From: a virus
Length of the DNA: 42,745 bases
Strand: one strand, 5' to 3'
IMG/VR virus record: IMGVR_UViG_3300047557_000484
Span: 1 to 42,745 of that record
Below are positions 15,303-36,426 of this stretch, piece by piece. Both the position numbers and the translations under genes were made by a program. The notes beneath the pieces are model-generated. The model searched no databases, had not been told where the DNA came from, and saw only the letters and a program-made list of their open reading frames with translations. Every line of letters begins with the position of its first letter. Position 1 is the first letter of the stretch.

Positions 15303-15672
15303 CGGTGTTTTCGCCGATGAAGCGGAAGGGAATGTCGGTAGCCACAGCGTCTAAAACGCTGCTGAGCTGCAGCGTTACTTTGGTTTCATCTTGCGATGAC
15401 GCGCTCACTTGTCCTACGTAGGTGTAGATCGTCCTACCGGCTGAGACGTTGACCAGTGCCACCGTGGCGACCCAGTTGCTGGTAATAGCCTCGGCGGCCC
15501 AGGAGCGCGAGAGATCGTTGGTAGGAAATACCAGCGTGGCTTGGGTGTTGTCACCTCCGCGACTGACGGTGACGCCGCTGAACCCGAAGGGCAGGAAGTT
15601 TCCGCCTTGCAGGCTGTAGTTCTGGTAGCTGGCTCCGTTGAGGTTAAGCGTGTTGCCGATAATTAGTTCCAT
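15262..15672 (-). CDS. minor tail protein (lambda L/M-like position)
   Basis: A 136-residue beta-rich protein starting MELIIGNTLNLNGASYQNYS, with FSGVTVSRGGDNTQATLVFP, then WVATVALVNVSAGRTIYTYV and LQLSSVLDAVATDIPFRFI. The repeated strands and the sequence pattern resemble small distal tail proteins that connect tape measure, tube and tip. Its start touches the tape-measure stop (1-base overlap), and the NlpC-like gene follows. No metal-binding Cys cluster is seen, so it is not a classical lambda L protein. The role is inferred from gene order. Confidence 0.7.
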   Translation of the reverse strand: MELIIGNTLNLNGASYQNYSLQGGNFLPFGFSGVTVSRGGDNTQATLVFPTNDLSRSWAAEAITSNWVATVALVNVSAGRTIYTYVGQVSASSQDETKVTLQLSSVLDAVATDIPFRFIGENTVGAIPTSSAFRLS

Positions 15673-17819
15673 CAGACTCCTACGCGACGGCGCACTGAGG
15701 GTGAATTTTGCAGGCGGCTGAGGGCGCGGCGTTCACCTTGCTCGGCACCTTGCTTGGCGGCTTGTGCCATACCGCGCTGGAACTGATCGGCGGTGACGTA
15801 ATCCACGCTGTTGATTCGTTCCACCGTGTAACGCACATCAATACTGCCGGATCCTCCGCCGACAGTGCCGCCTCCGCCGGAGGCGCCGTTGCCTGGGATA
15901 ACGGCTGCACCGCGTGCACCGGCAGAGTAGCGGCTCATGGCACTACGCATCTTGCTAGCTGGGATGACGTATTCCGGTTCGCCGCCTTCGCCGATCAGGG
16001 CATTGGTCGGTCCGGTAACGAAACCGCCTTCTGCATAACCGCCAACCTTCAATCCGGGAATAGGTGATTTTAGTGCACCAGTGCCAGTGAGATTTTTATT
16101 GGCAGTACCCAGCGCATTGCCGCCAGCGCTACTTAAAGCATTAAAGATTGTTTGCAAGATAATTAACGTCATCTGCTTAGCAATAATCTCAAGCGCCATG
16201 CTGATGAACGCCTGACCAATGCTCTTAAATGCATCGGCCAACGCTTCTTGCGTTGATTTAGCTCCCGTGATTACCTCGCCAAATGCAGTACTAAAAGCAT
16301 CGCCAATAGCGGTTGCGCCATTCACGATCGTGTCAATTTGTAGTTTGATTGGGCTTAGGTCTTCTTTGAGCTTGGCAATTTTGTCACTTAAGCCACCGGC
16401 AACAGTGCCCTCACCTGCTACGCCGAACTCTGTCTCGCCAAGTGCTTTTTTAAATAACTTTTCCGCTTCCTCTGCTTGCTTTTTAAGGGCTTCGGTTTGC
16501 AGATCAATAATTTCTAGCCTACGGATCTCGCCGTTAAGCTGCACTAGGTTTGTGCGTTGTTCTGCATTTTTTAGCTCACTAATTTGTTTTGCTCTATCTT
16601 CAAAATCAAACTGAATTTGAAGGCGCTTGCGTTCAGTTTCAGAGGCTTCATCAAGCAATAAAACTTGACGGCTGAACTGCGTACCGAGTTGATCGCCAAC
16701 TTCCAACGAGCGCTCAAGCTCTTGTCGTAATTTTTCCGCTTCACGCGCTGCTTTTTCTGCTGTTTTTTCTGCGTCAGATTTACCACCACGACCTTTGCCT
16801 CCAGTGGCACCAAGCAGGGGCGGCAGTCCACTGCCTCGCGTCATTACAGGCGCAGCCGCGGCTCTGCCCGCGTCCATTTCTGCCGTAACCAATGATTTTC
16901 TCAGGCGTTCACGATATTGCTGTACCTCTTGGTCAAAAGGATTGACATATCTCAGCGCCCCAAAGCGGGTTCTTGTGCGACGATTTGCCTCTTCGTATGC
17001 TCTTGCTTCAGCGCCAATGCGTCCCGCAGTATTGAGCCTTTCAATAAGCGCATTTACGCCATCAATCAAAAACTTAAAGACGGGTGCAAAAAATGTCCCA
17101 ATGTTTTGTGCTAGTCGTTGAAACGAATCTTGTAGTGTGCTGAGCTTGCCATTTAGCGTATCGCTTTGGGCGATAGCGCCATTGGCGTATTTACCACCGG
17201 CGTCGGTCAGTTTGATAATCGCAGCTTCAACGGCTTGGGCGCTAATCCGCCCGCCTTCTAGTGCTTTTTGAAACTCCTCTCCACTCAAGTTGTATTCTTC
17301 GCGTAATACCTGCTGCAGTGCAACACCACGTTCTTGGAATTGCAACAGCTCCTCGCCTTGTAATCTTCCTTTAGCCTGAACTTGTCCATAGGCGGTAACT
17401 AAGCCCTGCAATTCGGCGCCTGTTGCACCGCTTACATCGGCAAGCCGGCGGGTAGTATCAACAACCTTATTTGTTTCAACGCCAAAAGCCTGTAACCGCT
17501 TAGCGGCATCAATAAGCTCACTGCTGGTAAATGGCGTGACTGCGCCAAGGTCTTGCAATTCTTTAACGATCTGACCAGCGCGTTGAGCGCTGCCAGTCAG
17601 TACCTCCAAACTGCGGCGTTGGCTTTCAACTTCTGCTGCTTGGACAAAAACAAACTTAGCGGCTTGGAACGCTGCAAATGCACCGGCTAGACGACCGACA
17701 ACCGCGCCTAATCCATCAATCGCACGCTCTGTTTGCTGCGATTGCGACTGAACCTCGCGCAGTTTGCTAACCGCGTTGCGGCTGTCGACGTTAATGGCAA
17801 CGTTGGCGACAACCGACAC
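15672..17819 (-). CDS. tail tape measure protein
   Basis: A 715-residue tape measure. The N-terminal coiled coil (AVSKLREVQSQSQQTERAI) leads to the conserved tape-measure core at about 75-230 (SLEVLTGSAQRAGQIVKELQ, GAVTPFTSSELIDAAKRLQA, YGQVQAKGRLQGEELLQFQE). The central part has a long charged helix (AEKTAEKAAREAEKLRQELE) and the C-terminal part a hydrophobic stretch at about 545-570 (FISMALEIIAKQMTLIILQT). At about 0.15 nm per residue this predicts a tail of roughly 105 nm. It starts at GTG (17819), 3 bases after the stop of the frameshifted chaperone extension, the usual siphophage order. Confidence 0.92.
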   Translation of the reverse strand: MSVVANVAINVDSRNAVSKLREVQSQSQQTERAIDGLGAVVGRLAGAFAAFQAAKFVFVQAAEVESQRRSLEVLTGSAQRAGQIVKELQDLGAVTPFTSSELIDAAKRLQAFGVETNKVVDTTRRLADVSGATGAELQGLVTAYGQVQAKGRLQGEELLQFQERGVALQQVLREEYNLSGEEFQKALEGGRISAQAVEAAIIKLTDAGGKYANGAIAQSDTLNGKLSTLQDSFQRLAQNIGTFFAPVFKFLIDGVNALIERLNTAGRIGAEARAYEEANRRTRTRFGALRYVNPFDQEVQQYRERLRKSLVTAEMDAGRAAAAPVMTRGSGLPPLLGATGGKGRGGKSDAEKTAEKAAREAEKLRQELERSLEVGDQLGTQFSRQVLLLDEASETERKRLQIQFDFEDRAKQISELKNAEQRTNLVQLNGEIRRLEIIDLQTEALKKQAEEAEKLFKKALGETEFGVAGEGTVAGGLSDKIAKLKEDLSPIKLQIDTIVNGATAIGDAFSTAFGEVITGAKSTQEALADAFKSIGQAFISMALEIIAKQMTLIILQTIFNALSSAGGNALGTANKNLTGTGALKSPIPGLKVGGYAEGGFVTGPTNALIGEGGEPEYVIPASKMRSAMSRYSAGARGAAVIPGNGASGGGGTVGGGSGSIDVRYTVERINSVDYVTADQFQRGMAQAAKQGAEQGERRALSRLQNSPSVRRRVGV

Positions 17820-17822
17820 GAC

Positions 17823-18012
17823 TTACCTACGGCTTTGCTTCATTCTACGATCCTGTTCTTCGTTCTGCAGCTCAAAATAACTAGACCATATCAGCAACTC
17901 TTCAAGCGTTACCTCTTGGTTTAATCGCGCCAAGCTATATCCAAGTTCTTTTGCAATCCCAAGCTGCAGCAGCAGCAGGTTGTCTTTCTTTAGCTCAGCC
18001 TTTACCGCTTTT
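17823..18012 (-). CDS. tail assembly chaperone frameshift extension (GpT-like)
   Basis: A frame with no start codon of its own, open from the slip site to TAA at 17823-17825. It reads AELKKDNLLLLQLGIAKELG, then SLARLNQEVTLEELLIWSSY and FELQNEEQDRRMKQSRR. The FELQNEEQDRR-type ending is typical of the T part of lambda-like G/GT tail chaperones. It lies in the +1 frame relative to the upstream G-like gene. The +1 frame is closed by TGA just before the overlap, so the shift must occur within about 18 bases before the G stop. The run AAAA at 18012-18009, just after an ATG codon, lets tRNA-Lys re-pair perfectly one base downstream. The extension adds about 60 residues. Confidence 0.8.
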
Positions 18013-18345
18013 CATGTCCAGTTCTTTGCCTTCCTCTGGGTTGGTGATGATTGCCAGCATCATGGCTTGCAGATCACTGTCAAGCACATCGTTTTTCAGC
18101 TCAGCAATTTCGCCAGCCTGAAACAACCGCTGGCCGGCATCGTCGGCTGCTTTGGTTACCAGCAGGTTCAACGCAAAGCCATTGGGATCATCGCCACCGG
18201 GCATCTTTTGTGCACGCTCGCGTTCTGCCATGGTCAGCGCCGTAGCGTAAAACTCAAACGTAGATCCATCGTTGAGTGTTACGACACGCTTAATTGGCTG
18301 AAGATTGGCTGCTTTTTTCAGCCGTGCCAGTGCAGATGATGCCAT
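17995..18345 (-). CDS. tail assembly chaperone (GpG-like)
   Basis: A 116-residue protein (MASSALARLKKAANLQPIKR, FEFYATALTMAERERAQKM, LFQAGEIAELKNDVLDSDLQ) encoded between the main tail protein and the tape measure, the standard place for the tail assembly chaperone. The pattern of a short beta N-terminus with FEFYATALTMAERE and a helical C-terminus fits the family. It coats the tape measure during tube assembly and is absent from the virion. Near its stop the message carries a candidate +1 slip site that would add the GpT-like extension. An AGGAAGG sequence lies about 15-20 bases before the slip window. Confidence 0.82.
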   Translation of the reverse strand: MASSALARLKKAANLQPIKRVVTLNDGSTFEFYATALTMAERERAQKMPGGDDPNGFALNLLVTKAADDAGQRLFQAGEIAELKNDVLDSDLQAMMLAIITNPEEGKELDMKSGKG

Positions 18346-18391: not shown

Positions 18392-19150
18392 TCAAGCAGA
18401 GGTGCTGAAGTCAAAAGTAGGTGCACCGGCCGGGCGGAAAGTGATCTCCACTTGCTGAGCATCATCAGGATTGATGTTCAGGCTGGCGGTCAGCAGCACA
18501 GCATCCATGGCAATGGAGCGGCTCAGTGCCTCAGTGCCTTGCTTGTCGGTGTACAGCTTGAAGCCGCAGCCAACCTGCTGGCGCTGCAGGACATCTTCCA
18601 CCATGCGGTTAGACAGCGCAGCGTCCTCGTTGGTGACGTAGATCGTTGCGGTGCCGTTGCCGTCGGCGAAGCCAGGAATGTAAGCGCGGAAGGGCGCATA
18701 CTGGCCAGCGGTTTGGCCGATGGTGGTCACGTCGATCTCAGCGCGGCTGATCTCAAACGACCATGACTGCACTTGGCCAACGGCGGCATAGTCGGCGTAG
18801 TACACCTCGAACTCGTTAGGTGCCACGGCCGTGCCGTCGTCGGTGATGGCGAGGATGGTACCGCCAGCAGCGGTGGATACGGTCAACGCGCCAGTAGCTG
18901 CGGTGTAGCTCAACACGTAGTAGGTGGTAGCTGCATCAATCGGAGACGGCAGCGTGCCGGATCCAGATCCGCCGGTTTGGCTATTGATAACTCGGAACTT
19001 GACCGGATCGCCAGCCTTGAAGTTCAGAAACGGCTGAACGGTGATGACATCAGTGCTGGCATTGACGCCGGATTCGGGGAAGTTGCCGTTAGTGCCGGCA
19101 GGCTTGTAGTAAAGAGCGCCGGACGTACCGGACAGAACAGTAACAGCCAT
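18392..19150 (-). CDS. major tail protein (tail tube), paralogue 1
   Basis: A 252-residue tail protein placed between the tail terminator and the chaperones, the position of the major tube protein. The tube pattern is WSFEISRAEIDVTTIGQTAG, then YIPGFADGNGTATIYV, and a closing SIAMDAVLLTASLNINPDDA with VEITFRPAGAP. The N-terminal half (residues about 25-115) carries an inserted beta domain with AATTYYVLSYTAATGALTVS, which may decorate the outside of the tail. Two shorter proteins at 9799-10683 and 10680-11117 share the tube pattern. Confidence 0.85.
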   Translation of the reverse strand: MAVTVLSGTSGALYYKPAGTNGNFPESGVNASTDVITVQPFLNFKAGDPVKFRVINSQTGGSGSGTLPSPIDAATTYYVLSYTAATGALTVSTAAGGTILAITDDGTAVAPNEFEVYYADYAAVGQVQSWSFEISRAEIDVTTIGQTAGQYAPFRAYIPGFADGNGTATIYVTNEDAALSNRMVEDVLQRQQVGCGFKLYTDKQGTEALSRSIAMDAVLLTASLNINPDDAQQVEITFRPAGAPTFDFSTSA

Positions 19151-19173: not shown

Positions 19174-19596
19174 TCAGTCTAGATAAGCTTCAAACGTAGC
19201 AGTTAGCTGGGTTTGAAAGTAAGGCTCAGGCGCTGCTGGCGTTACTTGCGCTGGCCCTGAAGCTGCATCAAAAATGATGCTTGAAAACTTGGCGCGATCA
19301 AACAAATCCTTTAGCCGCTCTGCAATAGTGAAATTAGCAGCAGTGCCTTGACCCTGCGGCGTAAAGACATAAACCACCAGCGTGCCAGTCTGGCGGTTGA
19401 AGCCAACGCCACCAGTCGGCAGCAGCGTGGCGTAACTGTTATCGCCAAAACGGATGAACACTTGCACCCATGGCGTGTTGTTGGGTGGCGTAAATGGCAC
19501 GTTCTGATAACTGACCGGATACGCAGGCGACAGCGCCATTTGCGTTGCAATGCGCCCTTCAATGGCGGCACGAACGTCGTTGTAGGTACTGCTCAT
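19174..19596 (-). CDS. tail terminator protein
   Basis: A 140-residue protein with the pattern of siphophage tail terminators: an N-terminal helix (YNDVRAAIEGRIATQMA), PWVQVFIRFGDN, RQTGTLVVYVFTPQGQG and a C-terminal EPYFQTQLTATFEAYLD strand. Terminators cap the finished tube and join it to the head. The position between the HK97-gp10-like protein and the major tail protein agrees. It overlaps the upstream gene by 4 bases. Confidence 0.82.
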   Translation of the reverse strand: MSSTYNDVRAAIEGRIATQMALSPAYPVSYQNVPFTPPNNTPWVQVFIRFGDNSYATLLPTGGVGFNRQTGTLVVYVFTPQGQGTAANFTIAERLKDLFDRAKFSSIIFDAASGPAQVTPAAPEPYFQTQLTATFEAYLD

Positions 19597-34909: not shown

Positions 34910-35074
34910 ATGCGCTACGAACCCAAATTTGTTCAGATTTCCGCTCCCGGCGAACCGCACGGGGCGACCTGTCTATACGCGCTAGATGAGGATGGCAATG
35001 TTTGGGAACTCCACTACTACGCCGGTGCTCACGAGTGGAAATTTGTTGGCTCACCCGCTGGCATTGAGAAATGA
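34910..35074 (+). CDS. 54-residue hypothetical protein, first rightward gene
   Basis: A short ORF reading MRYEPKFVQISAPGEPHGAT, then CLYALDEDGNVWELHYYAGA and HEWKFVGSPAGIEK. The LYALDEDGNVWE pattern is a beta-propeller-like or tip-like strand motif also seen in small phage proteins; no function is assigned. It is the first gene of the rightward arm and overlaps the helicase start (ATGA), which supports it as real. Confidence 0.65.
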   Translation: MRYEPKFVQISAPGEPHGATCLYALDEDGNVWELHYYAGAHEWKFVGSPAGIEK

Positions 35075-36426
35075 TTGATCTTCGCCCTTACCAGCAACAG
35101 TTAGTTAATCAAATACGCGGCCAGTATCAGTTAGGCCACAAATCGGTTCTTGCCGTGCTTAGCACTGGTGGCGGCAAGACTTACATTTTCAGCTACATCG
35201 CTCAACAAGCAAGTGTTAAGGGTAACAGGGTTCTAATCCTTGTCCACAGGGCTGAACTGCTCGACCAAGCAAGCCGCAGCTTGCGCAGCATGGACGTTGC
35301 GCACGGGTTGATTCAAGCCGGCAAATCAATGGACCTATCCCGCACGGTGCAGGTCGCATCGGTGCAGACACTGGCACGCAGACTGCACCTGCTGCCGCGG
35401 GATTTCTTCCAACTGCTGGTGGTTGACGAGGCACACCACACCACGGCCGGTACATGGGCGCGTGTGATCGAGCACTTCCATAACGCCAAGCTGCTCGGCG
35501 TCACCGCAACACCGATCCGCTCAGACGGCCGCGGCCTAGGCGAGCACTACCAAGCGATGGTGCAAGGACCAACAGCGGAGCAACTAACCGACCAAGGATT
35601 CCTTGCCGCTGCCAAGGTGCTGGCGCCGCCGGGTTTTGACTCAACCGGCTTACGTAAGCGCATGGGTGACTTTGATCAGCGCGAGGCTGAGCAACGCGTC
35701 GGCACAATCATGGGCGACTGCTTGGGCCACTACCGCAAGCACCTGTCAGGCCAGACGGCAATTGCGTTCTGCTGCTCTGTGGCACACGCGGAGGCAGTGG
35801 CAGCACTCTTCCAGTCAGCAGGTATCGCCGCGGCCAGTATTGACGGCAGCATGGATGCAGCCAATAGAAGGCAGCTATTGGCTGATTTAGCGATAGGTCG
35901 CATCAAGGTGCTGACCAGTTGCGCATTGATCGGTGAAGGCGTGGACGTACCCAGCGTCGGCGGCTGCATCTTGCTGCGGCCAACGGCATCGGTGGCGCTG
36001 CACCTGCAGATGATCGGCCGATGCCTGCGCCCGCAGCCTGGCAAGCGCGCCGTAGTGCTGGATCACGTCGGCAACACGCTCAGGCTTGGTCACCATTTGG
36101 AGCCCCGCGAGTGGGCGCTAGACGGCCTTAAAAAGCGCGACCGCGAGGCAGCGCCATCGGTCAAGGTGTGCCCGAAGTGCTTTGCCACTAGCGCCAGCGC
36201 TGCGCAGGTATGCCGCGAATGCGGTCATGTGTTTGCGCCACAGGAACGACGTGAGTTGAAGCAGGTGGATGGTGAGTTGGTGGAGATGGCAGTGGCTAAG
36301 CGGCGCGAGCAGTCCTCAGCCCGCGACCTGGATGCACTCCGCCAGCTAGCGCAGCAACGCGGCTACAAGCGAGGATGGGCGGAACGTGTCTACCAGGCGC
36401 GACTGGCTAAGAGGCATGGCATCTGA
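35071..36426 (+). CDS. SF2 DEAD/DEAH-box helicase with C-terminal zinc ribbon
   Basis: A 451-residue ATPase. Motif I is STGGGKT (31-37), motif II is DEAH (119-122), motif III TATPIRSD, and motif VI is QMIGRCLRP near residue 315. The second RecA domain is complete. A zinc ribbon follows at about 366-390 (CPKCFATSASAAQVC, RECGHVF). This is the DEAD/ResIII type common in phages and resembles Ssl2/RadD-like helicases, with roles in recombination or replication restart. The start overlaps the upstream stop by 4 bases and the stop overlaps the VRR-NUC start. Confidence 0.9.
   Translation: MIDLRPYQQQLVNQIRGQYQLGHKSVLAVLSTGGGKTYIFSYIAQQASVKGNRVLILVHRAELLDQASRSLRSMDVAHGLIQAGKSMDLSRTVQVASVQTLARRLHLLPRDFFQLLVVDEAHHTTAGTWARVIEHFHNAKLLGVTATPIRSDGRGLGEHYQAMVQGPTAEQLTDQGFLAAAKVLAPPGFDSTGLRKRMGDFDQREAEQRVGTIMGDCLGHYRKHLSGQTAIAFCCSVAHAEAVAALFQSAGIAAASIDGSMDAANRRQLLADLAIGRIKVLTSCALIGEGVDVPSVGGCILLRPTASVALHLQMIGRCLRPQPGKRAVVLDHVGNTLRLGHHLEPREWALDGLKKRDREAAPSVKVCPKCFATSASAAQVCRECGHVFAPQERRELKQVDGELVEMAVAKRREQSSARDLDALRQLAQQRGYKRGWAERVYQARLAKRHGI

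Follow-up and report, generated by a model that had tools for sequence, protein, structure and literature searches.

Genes and frames in the tail region

The window, the whole stretch of DNA that was analysed, is a 42.7-kb IMG/VR record of an uncultured virus, whose family probably infects cyanobacteria. Its minus strand carries a G-like gene between the major tail protein gene and the tape measure gene, an order that matches the G/GT-type chaperone region of siphophages. The features of the region are collected in Table 1. Elsewhere in the window, positions 35071-36426 (plus strand) encode a DEAD/ResIII-type helicase with a C-terminal zinc-ribbon-like match (UPF0547, under its cut-off).

Table 1 Features of the tail gene region of the window
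Feature	Position	Strand	Evidence and remarks
Tail terminator	19174..19596	-	Pfam Phage_tail_terminator_5, E 9.3e-16; phrog_179, E 1.2e-24
Major tail protein	18392..19150	-	phrog_158, E 6.1e-9; directly 5' of the G-like gene
G-like tail assembly chaperone, 0 frame	17995..18345	-	ORF, 116 aa, stop TGA 17997-17995; phrog_20784, E 1.5e-33
AGGAAGG (18035-18029) and 16-nt spacer	18013..18035	-	SD-like purine run, role doubtful
TGA immediately 5' of the shift site, shutting the +1 frame	18012..18014	-	Read from the sequence
Shift site AAA_AGC (putative)	18007..18012	-	P-site Lys AAA, A-site AGC; the +1 frame reads AAA then GCG
T-like extension, +1 frame	17823..18011	-	Open frame, 62 codons and stop TAA 17825-17823; phrog_26456, E 9.6e-6
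Tape measure protein, GTG start	15672..17819	-	Pfam TMP_3, E 4.7e-24; directly 3' of the T-like extension

At its end the G-like gene reads ATG (18015-18013), AAA (18012-18010), AGC (18009-18007), GGT, AAA, GGC and TGA (17997-17995). In the +1 frame, TGA (18014-18012) is followed at once by AAA (18011-18009), from which the frame stays open as far as its TAA (KAVKAELKKDN...FELQNEEQDRRMKQSRR). A preliminary description of the window had proposed that an open +1 frame with a T-like extension overlaps the end of the G-like gene, that this frame is shut by a TGA just before the overlap, and that AAAA at 18012-18009 lies within it. All of this is borne out, the open frame being present at 18011-17823 and lacking any usable start. 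The overlap itself also exists, and its length is 17 nt, not the roughly 18 bases given there. The -1 frame goes straight to a TAA, as had been described, at 18004-18002; a canonical -1 heptamer X XXY YYZ with T in the -1 frame is thus not found in the window, where the sequence reads G AAA AGC.

The window's G protein itself matches only a family of unknown function, phrog_20784. Among its relatives, 41 of 47 match the tail assembly chaperone family phrog_344 and 7 of 47 match Pfam Phage_TAC_13. The HK97 tail assembly chaperone, 2ob9, is the structure closest in fold to the predicted model of G (pLDDT 84), at E 1.4e-3 and probability 1.00 in Foldseek and with a Z of 8.0 and an rmsd of 4.1 A over 99 residues at 11% identity; the next entry has a Z of 5.3. 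Of 44 T members, 42 match the tail protein family phrog_337; for the T of the window the matches are phrog_26456 and phrog_14766 instead. The T model is all-helical and confident (pLDDT 92.8). Searching the sequences of solved structures with the G-T fusion gave no hits. The PHROG families phrog_20784 and phrog_26456, both listed as of unknown function, apparently represent G and T, respectively, of this tail assembly chaperone and would thereby gain a likely function.

Frame relation and AAA_AGN site among relatives

The window's G protein was used as a query against IMG/VR, and the best 80 of 368 loci were kept. T lies in the +1 frame in all of these best 80 of 368, which carry the AAAAGC site or, among the matches listed, ATGAAAAGC at the G end. 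Six further relatives served as queries, bringing the total to 439 loci, in 432 of which both G and T were recognised by profile search. In the seven that were left out (L001, which is the window's own fragment, L095, L099, L120, L180, L181 and L190) one part had no match. In each of the 432 classed loci the frame changes between G and T at the G end, as read from the sequence, with the product predicted from it: the relation is +1 in 227 and -1 in 205. T is conserved alike, and in one register, in the +1 and -1 relatives, with its A, E and W positions kept. L105, which branches early within the window clade, was the query of a final scan that gave 80 loci, of which 70 had an unseen sequence at the G end; all 70 are +1 with ATG AAA AGC or AGT. 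Nine of the remainder had been seen before (seven +1, two -1), and one had no T match. The records of seven isolates, Cyanophage KBS-S-2A and six more, are all -1. No prophage or host-genome copy was seen, because none of the 74 pattern matches in genome contigs is a relative, the pattern being perhaps too strict.

Two things had been named in the preliminary description as speaking against a frameshift, namely a one-base sequencing error and relatives with the extension in frame or as a separate gene. The first is ruled out by the 80 metagenome contigs that share the +1 relation, and the second occurs in 0 of the 432 classed loci. More broadly, slippage of RNA polymerase along the A run, faulty sequencing or decay of the gene is extremely unlikely to explain the arrangement. 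There is a homopolymer of four A at the site, which such a reading could invoke; a run of that length is short for transcriptional slippage, the frame relation is common to 80 of 80 contigs (the best 80 of 368), and the T frame is conserved as protein.

The comparison with relatives that had been suggested as a check shows the frame relation and AAAAG kept in the overlap of all 227 +1 loci. Each of these overlaps contains an in-frame AAA AGN, with AGC in 214, AGT in nine, AGA in two and AGG in two. In 64 of the 227 the overlap, taken from the last stop of the +1 frame to the G stop, consists of this pair alone (AAA AGC in 61, AAA AGT in three), so there is no alternative place for a shift in those 64. 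By comparison, AAA AGN occurs within the last 20 G codons in 0 of 205 -1 loci, and elsewhere in G of the +1 loci in only 13 of 22,797 codon pairs. The relation between AAAA and the +1 frame is confirmed, and it is conserved beyond chance.

The Lys codon of the site is AAA in all 36 +1 representatives and is followed by AGC in 32, AGT in three and AGA in one. Elsewhere in G the share of AAA among Lys codons is 13/32 and 68/167 in two clades, and 106/130 in the marine clade. From AAA to the G stop there are between 0 and 7 codons across the +1 loci, and this variable distance indicates that the stop codon is not needed. The codon before AAA also varies, with 11 different ones found (ATG, TTG, TTA, CTG, AGC, TCC and others). 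GA two codons before AAA, within an Asp or Glu codon (18017-18018 in the window), is invariant in all 36 representatives. Three loci (L465, L493 and L508) have a second in-frame AAA AGC just 5' of the G stop (ATG AAA AGC nnn AAA AGC TGA).

As both frames are coding at AAAAGC, the constraint could in principle act purely on the proteins, on Lys-Ser in one frame and Lys-Ala in the other. We give this hardly any weight. The -1 relatives have K-N, K-S (TCC or TCT) or K-A (GCC) at the same place, and KK, KI or KS in the T frame, so that neither Ser nor Ala is required; in the +1 loci, moreover, Lys is written AAA in 227 of 227 and Ser is written AGC or AGT in 223 of 223. It is also improbable that T is a separate protein, made by re-initiation or from a non-standard start near the G stop. 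Such a reading could draw on the purine-rich SD-like run upstream and on the annotation of Synechococcus phage S-H1, where T is a separate CDS. However, the position of the earliest ATG, GTG or TTG of the T frame ranges between codon indices 2 and 56; 6 of the 227 loci have none, and in the window the first such codon is a TTG within the conserved domain. A separate start would also leave the conservation of AAAAGC unexplained, the T frame being already open at the site.

Predicted +1 shift at AAA_AGC

The locus very probably encodes a tail assembly chaperone of the lambda G/GT type, with a minority of the ribosomes predicted to enter the +1 frame close to the 3' end of G and so to add T. In the proposed mechanism, peptidyl-tRNA-Lys would sit on AAA (18012-18010) in the P site with AGC (18009-18007) waiting in the A site. 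The tRNA would then release and re-pair perfectly on the overlapping AAA one base forward, and GCG would be decoded in the new frame, giving a predicted fusion junction of ...D-M-K-A-V-K-A-E-L.... That the shift occurs, its efficiency, its +1 sense and the role of AGC are what we infer from the sequence, and G and GT would presumably act as they do in lambda.

The preliminary description had offered the shift as +1 or -2. The +1 part stands: re-pairing of tRNA-Lys on AAA_A is the best-supported reading, with AAA_A present in 227 of 227 +1 loci. The -2 part does not. A -2 move leads into the same frame and is used in the tail genes of phage Mu (Atkins 2016, PMC5009743), but with it tRNA-Lys would land on TGA in the window and, at other loci, on TAA, GCA or CCA. 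With 11 different codons found before AAA, there is no -2 re-pairing, and the linker would exceed that of KBS-S-2A by one residue. We therefore hold a -2 shift to be very improbable.

On the preferred +1 reading, re-pairing is possible with any A-initial codon after AAA; only AGN was found, in three clades. AGN is the putative A-site codon in 227 of 227 +1 loci, and a stop codon in none. AGC is nevertheless common in the window phage, ranking 9 of 61 at 28.1 per 1000 codons, and codon rarity by itself was therefore rejected as the cause. A phage-borne tRNA was looked for and none was found. AGN in the A site is probably slow to decode, by analogy with the yeast Ty1, EST3 and Ty3 sites; such slowness is described for Ty1 and Ty3 (Atkins 2016, PMC5009743).

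No RNA structure was found downstream of the +1 sites (mean z -0.24 over 29, with 1 of 29 below -2). For the -1 representatives, the folding energy of the 60 nt downstream, set against shuffles, gave a mean z of -1.48, with 6 of 20 below -2 and KBS-S-2A at -2.9, so that stable downstream RNA is a tendency of the -1 relatives. The preliminary description had also suggested AGGAAGG as a stimulator. This run lies 16 nt from AAA, whereas +1 stimulators act at about 3 nt, -1 stimulators of the SD type acting at 9-14 nt (Atkins 2016, PMC5009743). Over the +1 clades the best mean SD-like energy lies 12-21 nt upstream, away from the spacing of about 3 nt of the release-factor-2 type. Compared with synonymous resampling, the strength of the SD-like runs shows no excess in the window clade (as strong in 47/200 resamples) or in the -1 loci (121/200), and it exceeds resampling in the marine and L118 clades (1/200 and 0/200 as strong). 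AGGAAGG as a +1 stimulator was rejected on its spacing and on a window-clade strength that is as the amino acids predict. Since the distance of the SD-like runs fits -1 and not +1 stimulators, we give them no assured role.

The lambda G/GT and HK97 tail assembly chaperones, for which Xu, Hendrix and Duda (2004) reportedly is the source, resemble the system of the window in gene order, in a short protein with a frameshift extension, in the G fold (2ob9) and in a T-like second domain. They differ in that they shift -1 on a heptamer, whereas the window would shift +1 on AAA_AGC and shows no downstream RNA structure. Tailed phages as a group differ in the tail chaperone shift, which may be -1, -2 or +1 (Atkins 2016, PMC5009743). 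A +1 shift is predicted in the tail chaperone gene of Halorubrum virus HSTV-2 according to the same review and a review on archaea; HSTV-2 is an archaeal myovirus, unlike the window, and the likeness is one of gene type and direction. Atkins 2016 (PMC5009743) also lists the +1 sites of Ty1 (CUU_AGG_C), EST3 (CUU_AGU_U) and Ty3 (GCG_AGU_U), which resemble that of the window in presenting a sense codon, AGN, to the A site and in not requiring a stop codon. These are yeast sites with a Leu or Ala codon instead of Lys AAA in the P site, and there is no homology. Among phages, Listeria PSA, A118 and A500 shift +1 on CCC_UGA, and PSA also on CCC_UCC, according to the same source. Their shifts, unlike that of the window, are in capsid and tail-shaft genes and involve a proline codon and a stop codon or pseudoknot.

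Change of predicted shift direction within the family

Cyanophage KBS-S-2A (HQ634187) has the same G and T proteins and gene order as the window, its G being 63% and its T 73% identical, but its T lies in the -1 frame. The overlap is GTA AAA AAC TAA, with the heptamer A AAA AAC on which the -1 shift would take place. The linker from Asp to Glu-Leu has, by hand count, six residues in KBS-S-2A by -1 and six in the window by +1. GTA AAA AAC and ATG AAA AGC differ by three substitutions in nine bases, together with a 2-nt length change downstream. As so few base changes separate the two, and G, T and the length of the linker are kept, direction appears exchangeable while the product is conserved. 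The overlaps of the -1 loci show A AAA AAC, A AAA AAG, C CCA AAA, G GGA AAG and A AAG, which we take to be -1 slip sites. No clear slip site was seen in the overlap of S-2L (TCC AGT TCG AAC).

Trees of G and T, with the shift site excluded, were built from 52 rows and from 49 representatives. The latter were drawn from the 413 of 432 loci of adequate length; the alignment has 171 columns, and the tree is midpoint-rooted with some long branches. Both trees need three direction changes, and well-supported branches force three. The +1 loci fall into a marine clade (L083 and kin), L118 and its kin, and the window clade, which is nested inside the -1 group of KBS-S-2A. A single clade for all +1 loci is rejected (p-AU 2.4e-6), as is a single clade for the two non-marine +1 groups (p-AU 0.002, a grouping named after the tree had been seen). 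Clusters at 70% identity mix +1 and -1 loci; at 80% none is mixed. The three changes may be three +1 gains, or one gain and two losses, as the root is not fixed.

The same AAA AGN is found in each of the three +1 clades. We are inclined to regard AAA_AGN as a distinct, recurrent sense-codon +1 site of phages, within a family that would have switched between -1 and +1 three times, each +1 clade with AAA_AGC. No report of +1 shifting in cyanophage tail chaperones or of an AAA_AGN site was found in the open-licence PMC literature; to the extent of that search, the novelty lies in the switch of direction inside a single family, together with the recurrence of AAA_AGN. With nearly the same proteins made by two mechanisms, the family would provide a natural experiment on the direction and level of shifting, and AAA AGN would be a +1 motif usable by gene finders.

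The T extension, in the -1 frame, is unannotated in KBS-S-2A (L082, 4298-4473), S-2L (L271, 1884-2006) and MED4-184 (L273, 1842-2021). The annotation of Synechococcus phage S-H1 (L272) lists the extension as a hypothetical protein of its own.
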